DNA from: a bacterium
GTDB lineage: Bacteria > Zhuqueibacterota > Zhuqueibacteria > Residuimicrobiales > Krinioviventaceae
DNA: 34,764 nucleotides
Reading direction: 5' to 3'
Assembly: GCA_029561455.1 (NCBI GenBank)
Contig: JAKQIY010000032.1
Coordinates: 1-34,764, forward strand
The notes below the pieces were generated by a model, which saw only the letters and a list, made by a program, of their open reading frames with translations, made no database searches and had not been told where the DNA came from. The number at the start of each line of letters is the position of its first letter. Position 1 is the stretch's first letter. The position numbers and the translations under genes are program-made. Positions 21,174-29,259 of this stretch are shown piece by piece.

Positions 21174-22163
21174 TTAACGTAAAAGCATCATTTTTTTTAC
21201 ATCATGGTGTTCACCGCTTTCAAAACGGTACAAATATAAACCACTTGTAACAACCAGCCCCTGGTTATCATAGCCGTTCCAGTTTGTATGGTATTTTCCG
21301 GCTTGGAATATTCCGGTTTCAAGCTCCCGGATTAATTGTCCAATACTATTATATATTTTGATTGTAACAAAAGCTGTTTCCGGCAACTGCCAGGCTATGG
21401 TTGTGCACAGGTTAAAAGGATTGGGATATGCAGGATAAAGTGCATATTGTGTAGGTACAGCATCACTTTCATCAATAAATGTTGCTCCGGTAGTAAACAT
21501 CCAAATTGAAGAATATGGGCCTGTTCCCGCGTCGCTTACAGCGGCGATTCTCCAGAAATACAGGGTATTGGCTTCTAACGAGGGTAGCTCGTACCATGTA
21601 CCTGTAACATCGCTTTTTTCAAAGACGATAGAGGAAAAATCAGGCAAAGTTGCAACCTGAATAATATATCTTTGCGCTGCTGTTACAGCATACCATCTTA
21701 GTTCTGTATTACGGATTACCCCGTTAGCGTTGTTGGCAGGAGCTGCCAGGAGTGGCGCTTCCGGAAGAATTGCGTTTGTAGTAAAACTCCATATAGATGA
21801 AAACGGCCCTGTACCGGCCACATTACTTGCTTTAATACGCCAATAATATATAGTACTTGACGCAAGTCCCGGGAAAGAAAAATAAGTATCGTCAATATCA
21901 TTGGCAGAGACTGTCGGATCGCCGAAATCAAAACCTGTTGATACCTGTAGATGATATGTTGTCGCATGATCAAGTTTATCCCAGCTAAAAACAACCGGGG
22001 TTGGAACACATGTCATTCCATTTGCGGGAGCGCTTTGAACAGGTGTGTTAGGAGGTAATGACGTCAAAAAAACCGATGGAGACATGCTATTTCCGCTACC
22101 TCCATATACATTCATGGTAAATAGTACAAGGAAAAGAGCCGGAATATTGAATCCATTTTTCAT
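21174..22163 (-). CDS. Secreted two-FN3 protein with FlgD/T9SS-like C-terminal domain
   Basis: A 329-residue exported protein with a signal peptide (residues ~1-22). Two fibronectin-III-like repeats follow, each ending YYWRI or YFWRI with GTGPFSSIWSFTT or GTGPYSSIWMFTT (about 45-130 and 137-228). The last ~85 residues form a FlgD-Ig/type IX secretion sorting-like domain: YPAYPNPFN, IAWQLPE, VTIKIYNSIGQLIREL, then GLYLYRFESG and a final KKMMLLR. Such C-termini usually direct outer-membrane transfer and attachment in FCB-group bacteria, but no secretion-system genes are in view. There is no catalytic domain, so an adhesive or structural role is likely. It is the first gene of a minus-strand pair with the FISUMP protein. 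Confidence 0.85.
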   Translation of the reverse strand: MKNGFNIPALFLVLFTMNVYGGSGNSMSPSVFLTSLPPNTPVQSAPANGMTCVPTPVVFSWDKLDHATTYHLQVSTGFDFGDPTVSANDIDDTYFSFPGLASSTIYYWRIKASNVAGTGPFSSIWSFTTNAILPEAPLLAAPANNANGVIRNTELRWYAVTAAQRYIIQVATLPDFSSIVFEKSDVTGTWYELPSLEANTLYFWRIAAVSDAGTGPYSSIWMFTTGATFIDESDAVPTQYALYPAYPNPFNLCTTIAWQLPETAFVTIKIYNSIGQLIRELETGIFQAGKYHTNWNGYDNQGLVVTSGLYLYRFESGEHHDVKKMMLLR

Positions 22164-27378: not shown

Positions 27379-27666
27379 TTTGAAAAATTTTTCCGGGGTA
27401 AATATAAAAAGTTAGGATAATATTAATGATCATATAAAATACGATTAAAATATCGAATGAATCATTCAAAAGCATTTTGAATTTTATTTGATATTTATTA
27501 TATTTTGATACAACAGCACAGACCAGCTTAACCCCAATAGCCTCAGTTCTGAAAAACATTTTTAATCTCCCCTAAATTTTAAAAAATTTTTGTTCCTTGC
27601 ATAATATTGTTCATCTTTAATACCACCTGATGATTCAGGGGGATAACATTATTGGAGGAGAAAAAT
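27379..27666. other. AT-rich intergenic region, no feature seen
   Basis: 288 bp of AT-rich DNA between the response regulator and the C39-like gene. It contains a strong GGAGG ribosome-binding site for the next gene (just before 27667) but no other structure I can support. Confidence 0.5.
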
Positions 27667-29211
27667 ATGAAGAAAGGTATTGCCTGTGGGGTATTACTCG
27701 TTTTAATGGTATGTTCGTGCACTGTATTTGCCCAGGAAATGGAGACAATGACCGCACCGGTTCCACCGGTCATTGAACCACACGTGTTACCCGCGCCACC
27801 TGTTCTTACAGAATATCTTTGGGATTTAACTCATGGAGTGCACGATTATTATATACCATTACCCACTTCGAGATATAGTAAACTTTTAAAAACATTATAT
27901 AATTCTGATTTTGCTTATCGTAGCTGTGCCTATTTATTATCAGTAGCAGAAGTCTTATCAAGATATAAAATACTGGTTATTTGTATCGGCACGGCATGGT
28001 GCAGCCCTTATTTGGAGGAAGAAATAGTTTTAATAAAAGAGTATGTTCAAAATGGCGGGGGGTTGCTGATTTTAGCCGACAGCCTTAATGCTCCTAATGA
28101 AAATATAGCCGGCCTTGCCCAGGAGTTTGGAATTAATATTGCAGTATCCGGAATACCCCAGGCTAGTATCAGCACTTTTCCGGAAAACAATGAACTCTTT
28201 TCAGGATTGGAATCAATCAATCTTTTTGGAATTGGCGAACTCACTGTCGGCACAGGTGCAACCATTGTAGCAAGGGATATAGCCAACCGGGGATGTGTTG
28301 CAACTGCCGAATATGGCGCCGGCCGGGTCGTTGTTATCGGCGATATGAATCTTTTTGAAAATATACATCTTAATATTTTTGGCAACCAGCATTTTCTGGT
28401 AAATGTTTTTGAATGGTTATCAAAAACAAAGGGAAAGAGATTTATCAAAAATTTCAATGATTTCCCATCTTTTCCCTATAATTCAGCACAATACAGGAAT
28501 AACGGCGCTTTTGTCGGATGCGGGCCAACAACCGGTGCAATGATCTTTGCTTATTTTGATCATAGCTTTGGCAGCCGGTTGTTAACAAATCCCGGTACGG
28601 AGATTGATGAAGGCCTGAAAACCGCCTGGGCGTTGCATGGCATAAGATATATGAACACACAAAATGATGGATTTAACACTGCTTTTAATATTAAACCGGG
28701 ATTGGGAAATTATGCCAGAATACACGGGTACAAATTAAAAACAACCATTCATGTGTCGCCAACTTTTTCACCAACTGATACAACCCACGATTGGAACGAC
28801 TACGGCCCATACGGTAATGCCTGGACAAATGATGCTTTGTTTTGGGAAAAATTAGAAACGGATAAATGGCGGATAAATATTGATGAATTCTGTGATTTTC
28901 TGGCGCCCTGCTTTAGCCGCGGCATCCCCATTTTCCTGGCCATTGATACAAACGCAGATGGCAAGGGAAACCATTGGGTGCCTTTAGTAGGTTATAACAG
29001 AAGCACCGGCCAGTATGCCTATTATAATACCTGGGATACTGAACTGCGCTGGGCCGCTATTTACTCGTGTTCAGATCCTGAAGGACATAAACAGAATTCT
29101 ATTACTGCCGTGCGAACTGTGAAATATGAAGGGGCATTAATTAATTACAAATTTATATCAATCATTGGCGCAATGACTCTGGGCGTTGCCGGTTACTTTT
29201 TATTGCGCTGA
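27667..29211 (+). CDS. Secreted protein: GATase-like domain plus C39-like cysteine protease fold
   Basis: A 514-residue protein with a signal peptide (about 1-23, cut near FAQ). A proline-rich segment follows (PVPPVIEPHVLPAPP). Residues ~85-250 resemble the DUF4350/GATase1-like fold: YKILVICIGTAW, LIKEYVQNGGGLLILAD, and GRVVVIGDMNLF. Residues ~260-475 look like a papain-like C39 peptidase: GCGPTTGAM (Cys285), NHWVPLVGY (His436) and YYNTWD (Asn454 or Asp457), consistent with a catalytic triad. The chain ends in a short hydrophobic helix and one Arg (GAMTLGVAGYFLLR), like a C-terminal membrane anchor or sorting tail without a recognised motif. Start 27667 follows GGAGGAG; the in-frame TTG at 27652 overlaps that site. 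Substrate and role are unknown. Confidence 0.75.
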   Translation: MKKGIACGVLLVLMVCSCTVFAQEMETMTAPVPPVIEPHVLPAPPVLTEYLWDLTHGVHDYYIPLPTSRYSKLLKTLYNSDFAYRSCAYLLSVAEVLSRYKILVICIGTAWCSPYLEEEIVLIKEYVQNGGGLLILADSLNAPNENIAGLAQEFGINIAVSGIPQASISTFPENNELFSGLESINLFGIGELTVGTGATIVARDIANRGCVATAEYGAGRVVVIGDMNLFENIHLNIFGNQHFLVNVFEWLSKTKGKRFIKNFNDFPSFPYNSAQYRNNGAFVGCGPTTGAMIFAYFDHSFGSRLLTNPGTEIDEGLKTAWALHGIRYMNTQNDGFNTAFNIKPGLGNYARIHGYKLKTTIHVSPTFSPTDTTHDWNDYGPYGNAWTNDALFWEKLETDKWRINIDEFCDFLAPCFSRGIPIFLAIDTNADGKGNHWVPLVGYNRSTGQYAYYNTWDTELRWAAIYSCSDPEGHKQNSITAVRTVKYEGALINYKFISIIGAMTLGVAGYFLLR

Positions 29212-29225
29212 TTTGCCACTTTCAC

Positions 29226-29259
29226 GGCACAGCCCTTTCCCACAGGGGAGGGCTGTGCC
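29226..29259. terminator. Hairpin between convergent genes
   Basis: An 11-bp perfect stem, GGCACAGCCCT with AGGGCTGTGCC, has a 12-nt loop. It lies 14 bp after the C39-like gene and just before the end of the convergent M28 gene. The downstream T-tract is poor, so it may act in either direction or as a processing hairpin. Confidence 0.5.

Follow-up and report, generated by a model that had tools for sequence, protein, structure and literature searches.

Locus and gene

The window analysed here, 34,764 nucleotides of DNA, is the entire contig C74 of a bacterial genome of 5.85 Mb that is 98.8% complete. The open reading frame at 27667-29211 on the forward strand is a genuine gene with homologues for both of its domains; it begins with an ATG at 27667, ends with a stop codon at 29209-29211 and encodes a protein of 514 amino acids (P0001), which is the single match in its own genome. 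A ribosome-binding site read from the sequence (GGAGGAG, 27654-27660, forward strand) lies 6 nt 5′ of the ATG. On the same strand, an intrinsic-terminator-like hairpin of 15 pairs (29226-29259; minimum free energy -31.2 kcal/mol, z -6.1), the tail of which is just moderately T-rich, begins 15 nt 3′ of the stop codon. As 288 nt separate the ATG from the end of the upstream gene, the P0001 gene is probably its own transcription unit. Promoter-like matches around it are not enriched, with six found against a mean of 6.9 in shuffled sequences.

Upstream of P0001 lie genes for a histidine kinase (PAS/HisKA_2) and a receiver-only response regulator of 126 amino acids, while downstream and on the other strand are an M28 peptidase and an AraC-type regulator. 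Of ten further window ORFs scanned, most encode ordinary metabolic or housekeeping functions. The contig end (33563-34728) also carries a transposase pair, matching HTH_Tnp_1 and rve, which we take to be of IS3 type. The neighbourhood had been put forward as a place to look for peptide substrates of the protein, and neither a substrate nor a partner gene was recognised beside P0001. Comparison of the window ORFs with 13 loci carrying relatives gave no shared partner gene among ORFs of at least 150 amino acids at E≤1e-8, a limit that leaves shorter genes such as the 126-residue response regulator outside the comparison, several of the loci being short contigs. Window proteins are linked to these loci solely through P0001 and through a sorting tail on the protein encoded at 21177-22163. 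The downstream M28 peptidase is present in one of six family genomes examined (E≤1e-20).

P0001 appears modular in structure, having a predicted N-terminal signal peptide, two domains and a C-terminal hydrophobic helix. Judged from a hydropathy scan and from the sequence by eye, the signal peptide spans residues 1-22 (27667-27732, forward strand) and is probably cut after VFA, with lipoprotein-type cleavage in front of Cys16 or Cys18 as the less likely alternative. The hydrophobic N-terminus thus bears out, at the level of sequence, the original prediction of an exported protein.

The GIFT domain

Residues 42-256 (27790-28434, forward strand) show similarity to the Pfam families ABC_transp_aux (GldG-like), IFT52_GIFT, DUF4350 and OST48_N, with every one of these matches below its curated cut-off (22.2 against 27.2 bits in the case of IFT52_GIFT). 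A profile (A2) was built from this domain and two relatives, L026 (43% identical) and L027 (31% identical), and all three members match IFT52_GIFT, ABC_transp_aux and OST48_N at E≤0.1. Against the PDB, A2 finds three IFT52 sequences with whole-sequence E-values of 9.1e-7 to 3.5e-6. In two of these sequences the similarity is made up of two stretches, the best single stretch having an E-value of 0.0038. The next match is a "putative cytoplasmic protein" (E 0.0049). P0001 on its own reaches IFT52 just at E 0.51 and 1.1. Since it is the A2 profile that retrieves IFT52 chains, GIFT (IFT52/GldG/OST48-like) is the best-supported name for the first domain of P0001. The earlier label, GATase1/DUF4350-like, therefore holds as a statement of distant fold family and gives way to GIFT as a specific name, which is better supported, the Pfam matches being below cut-off.

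The V-x-N-G-G region and the G-x-G-R-[VI] segment of P0001 align with those of IFT52 chains, but P0001 differs from the GIFT domains of GldG, IFT52 and OST48/Wbp1 in being apparently exported and in its fusion to a C39-like domain. No invariant cysteine is found among the GIFT-domain columns of the three-sequence alignment A2, which makes a working amidotransferase unlikely and suggests that this domain is probably a binding module. GIFT domains have been proposed to bind sugar (PMC7226087).

Searches of other collections with this domain gave little. A plasmid search returned just DUF4350 matches in two Haladaptatus plasmids, and the viral collection gave weak matches to the GIFT profile in two contigs. 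On one IMG/VR contig (L049, 2491-4371) a 626-residue protein is encoded in which an HExxH motif (HEINH) comes after a GIFT-like stretch; this may be a further combination of GIFT domain and peptidase.

The C39-like domain

The second domain occupies residues 257-490 (28435-29136, forward strand) and is delineated by alignments A1, A7 and A9, by PF13529 (Peptidase_C39_2) and by hhalign. PF13529 is matched by 14 of 15 family members at E≤0.1. The domain of P0001 itself gives an E-value of 0.007 and 17.4 bits, below the cut-off of 24, which is passed by the two Planctomycetales members scanned, L016 (35.8 bits) and L017 (35.1 bits). Apart from this lower score, P0001 has features in common with Peptidase_C39_2, these being a Cys-x-Pro-Thr motif at the start, a histidine in a D/N-H-x-V/I-x(3)-G stretch and then an aspartate or asparagine.

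When an 11-row family profile was run against the PDB, two sequences were returned at E≤10, each named C39-like (E 7.3e-4 and 0.0044). With a 15-row profile these matches weaken to 0.0094 and 0.052, and 4mi7 (E 0.28) and 5oec, named GtgE (E 0.53), also appear, both non-significant. Searched singly against the PDB, P0001 retrieves no cysteine-protease chain at E≤10, C39 or otherwise. A profile of the ten close members, shallow in depth (Neff 2.1), was aligned by hhalign with 15 of the 23 C39_2 matches, giving a probability of 96.3 and an E-value of 1.6e-9 over 36 columns around the histidine; a single control, the GIFT profile, gave a probability of 0.1. AlphaFold returned a mean pLDDT of 33.1 for the C39 domain with four relatives and of 32.9 for the full chain alone, values too low for a confident model of fold or triad geometry. 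At E≤1, P0001 has no Pfam match to the NlpC/P60, CHAP or transglutaminase families. At the level of sequence, the papain-type, C39-like domain of the original prediction is upheld, along with a conserved Cys-His-Asn/Asp set.

Predicted catalytic residues

Catalytic positions were read from an alignment of 15 sequences from the same phylum, the Planctomycetales and a phage contig, from which L048 (the same ORF as L047) and G020:C41 were left out. The latter is a weak partial match (E 9.2e-6) and has no blastp match in its ORFs. Cys285, the predicted nucleophile (GCGPTT; 28519-28521, forward strand), and His436, the predicted general base (NHWV; 28972-28974, forward strand), are invariant in all 15, a degree of conservation greater than chance would give. 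Asn454, the predicted third residue (29026-29028, forward strand), is shared with three Planctomycetales sequences, the other 11 having aspartate. Position 457 varies between Asp, Ser, Asn and Tyr, and for this reason Asp457 is not taken as a triad partner. The triad first proposed, Cys285 and His436 with either Asn454 or Asp457, can therefore be narrowed to a predicted Cys285-His436-Asn454. No Gln or Asn column within residues 264-284 is common to all 15 sequences, Asn272 being kept in just the 10 close members, and so no oxyanion residue was identified.

The order Cys-His-Asp/Asn is shared with the bacteriocin-processing C39 peptidases (PCAT/LahT), among which LahT is described as a working peptidase with the triad Cys27-His101-Asp117 (PMC6363468). 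The spacing from the histidine to the third residue is 16 in LahT and 18 in P0001, while the distance from cysteine to histidine is some 77 residues longer in P0001. Unlike the PCAT/LahT proteins, P0001 is without an ABC transporter, and its domain is predicted to be exported where theirs is cytosolic. Neither the ATPase nor the multi-helix transporter part of a PCAT exporter was found in P0001, and its ABC_transp_aux match (E 4.1e-4, below cut-off) corresponds to the GldG-like GIFT region.

The C-terminal helix and the type IX context

P0001 ends with a hydrophobic helix at residues 496-513 (mean Kyte-Doolittle value 2.01) followed by Arg514 and the stop codon (helix and Arg514 at 29152-29208, forward strand), confirming by hydropathy scan and sequence the short terminal helix and arginine that had been predicted. 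No sorting-tail model matches P0001 in Pfam (E≤1) or NCBIfam (E≤0.1), and no BLAST match of the protein extends past residue 495. Seven of its nine close relatives carry a type IX secretion system (T9SS)-type tail; in the other two (L021 and L023) the contig stops before a tail would be reached. The tails of L019 and L025 score above cut-off for Por_Secre_tail and that of L020 for FlgD_ig, with L022 slightly under the FlgD_ig cut-off (26.0 against 27); those of both L051 genes, and of L024, which is cut inside the tail, were assigned by BLAST similarity only. Relatives that are not cut short run on past the C39 domain into further modules where P0001 has its membrane helix. As the relatives carry a type IX address and P0001 a helix, the protein may be described as a C39 module with a membrane anchor in place of the type IX tail. 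We infer that the tailed form is ancestral.

The tail was also considered as a chance addition to a T9SS protein that had been truncated; bearing on this are the run of 18 hydrophobic residues with its arginine and the terminator-like hairpin that follows. A PEP-CTERM-like sorting signal was rejected, since the exosortase family PF09721 has no match in this 98.8% complete genome. Nor does P0001 match a sortase family in Pfam (E≤1) or NCBIfam (E≤0.1), so that the suggestion of a sortase-like enzyme finds no support, and neither does that of a self-anchoring one, save through the C-terminal helix itself. The genome encodes an SprA translocon (897.5 bits) and at least 150 T9SS tails (with 150 of 303 candidates scored), a very large type IX secretome.

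Relatives and domain shuffling

Close C39 relatives in the same phylum are 47-57% identical to P0001 over residues 257-490. Matches at E≤1e-5 occur in 10 of 82 genomes of the phylum, eight of which, including that of P0001, match strongly with 10 proteins, the matches in the other two being partial and weak. One other genome of the same genus was examined and has no C39-family match, and so the distribution looks patchy, some of the genomes being incomplete.

Secreted C39 proteins that end in a T9SS-type tail (for example those in G046, G040, G021 and G013, and in G049, where the contig is cut inside the tail) have the same Cys, His and Asp/Asn positions as P0001. They differ from it in their length, with open frames of 1,223-1,561 amino acids, in having no GIFT domain, and in the modules after the C39 domain, which by eye are FN3-like and CBM9-like and are followed by the tail instead of a membrane helix. 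Six relatives (L019, L020 and L022-L025) are alike over some 600 residues from the C39 domain onward (44-56% identity); four of them were scanned with Pfam and a CBM9 match was seen just in L025. At L051 (3514-12940, G077:C32) there are two tandem C39 proteins with open frames of 1,512 and 1,580 amino acids, one of these genes having its C39 domain in mid-protein.

The order GIFT then C39 is found in P0001 and in one more gene, G054:C265, which has an in-frame interruption and runs off the end of its contig. A GIFT domain with a T9SS-type tail and no C39 domain is present in L026 and L027. Together these architectures look like domain shuffling inside one secretome, and P0001 would be related by such shuffling to a C39 family whose other members leave the cell via the type IX system. 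This combination of modules was not found in the literature searched, which left out most subscription journals. P0001 looks like known modules newly arranged in an unusual combination, as opposed to a new mechanism.

More distant C39 relatives were identified at three Planctomycetales loci (L016-L018) by a genome-collection scan; their open frames are of at least 2,067-2,208 amino acids, with repetitive glycine-rich sequence and the C39-like domain at the C-terminus. A scan of the viral collection with the C39 profile gave two phage contigs encoding a distant C39 protein. These IMG/VR contigs (L047 and L048, 4773-5657) carry the same exported C39-like gene of 294 amino acids on the opposite strand. 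It sits between tape-measure and distal-tail genes, the phage families having been checked on L047 only, and is a possible phage cargo gene. Three single-domain viral scans matched some further stretches, none of which encodes a relative.

Predicted function and alternative explanations

The explanation that we favour, with confidence a little above even, is that P0001 is exported, stays tethered to the membrane and works as a C39-like thiol hydrolase, probably a peptidase, with its GIFT domain serving for binding. The chain would be exported by Sec and its N-terminus removed by signal peptidase, after which the C-terminal helix would stop in the inner membrane with a one-residue tail inside, leaving the enzyme domain to face the periplasm. 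There the GIFT domain may bind a ligand, which could be a glycan or a peptide, and Cys285, His436 and Asn454 would hydrolyse an amide bond, most likely that of a protein or peptide.

Two other readings of the C39-like domain each have a low probability. It may be a pseudo-enzyme, serving with or without the GIFT domain as a membrane-tethered binding module that carries out no hydrolysis, an unlikely reading that would fit the lack of an identified oxyanion residue within residues 264-284 of the 15 sequences and the asparagine of P0001 at the third triad position, where its nine close relatives have aspartate. Non-catalytic C39-like domains are described as acting in substrate recruitment, examples being the HlyB CLD and others of type I secretion, but these are reported to be without the cysteine (PMC6363468), unlike the P0001 family, in which all 15 sequences, drawn from its own phylum, the Planctomycetales and a phage contig, keep both Cys and His. 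It is also possible, if rather improbable, that the domain is an active thiol enzyme other than a protease, such as a cell-wall peptide amidase, a transglutaminase-like or an acyl-transfer enzyme. Papain-like Cys-His domains serve amidase, transglutaminase-like and acyl-transfer reactions. The sugar binding proposed for GIFT domains (PMC7226087) would fit a glycan-linked substrate; however, the sole significant profile matches in the PDB are chains named C39-like, and the NlpC/P60, CHAP and transglutaminase families go unmatched in P0001 at E≤1.

It is barely tenable that P0001 joins a class I glutamine amidotransferase to a protease, or that it is a sortase-like anchoring enzyme. A weak GATase1_like match is made by the window domain (E 0.026) and by two of the three A2 members (best E 0.0084), but the columns conserved across A2 include no GIFT-domain cysteine, and P0001 has no sortase family match in Pfam or NCBIfam and its genome no match to the exosortase family PF09721.

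If the preferred reading of P0001 as a tethered thiol hydrolase is right, type IX-secreting bacteria would re-use one hydrolase module under different addresses, with a sorting tail for release or attachment in some proteins and retention at the inner membrane in others, and P0001 would define a subfamily with an activity open to cheap testing. A far more speculative and very improbable extension is that of a periplasmic checkpoint at the inner membrane, where the GIFT domain would recognise, and the C39 domain cut, T9SS cargo or other exported proteins before their exit. Were this true, P0001 would be a processing protease so far overlooked in bacteria with type IX secretion, and a C39 protease family normally leaving via the type IX system would have been re-addressed to the inner membrane.

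A sigma factor gene set in the same phylum

Six loci in four of 81 genomes of the phylum, namely L051 (13120-18458), L027 (223-6143) and L089-L092, encode the same kind of sigma-70 region 2 factor; the first two of these suggested the pattern, and some of the contigs are cut. The same sigma factor has no match in the genome of P0001 at E≤1e-15. Beside it there is a relative of a zf-HC2/TPR protein (a putative anti-sigma factor) in six of six cases, a TPR-CHAT caspase-like protease in four of six and a divergently transcribed T9SS-tail protein in four of six, these including one C39 and one GIFT protein. The sigma factor, anti-sigma factor and CHAT set is possibly a protease-controlled sigma switch for secreted cargo.
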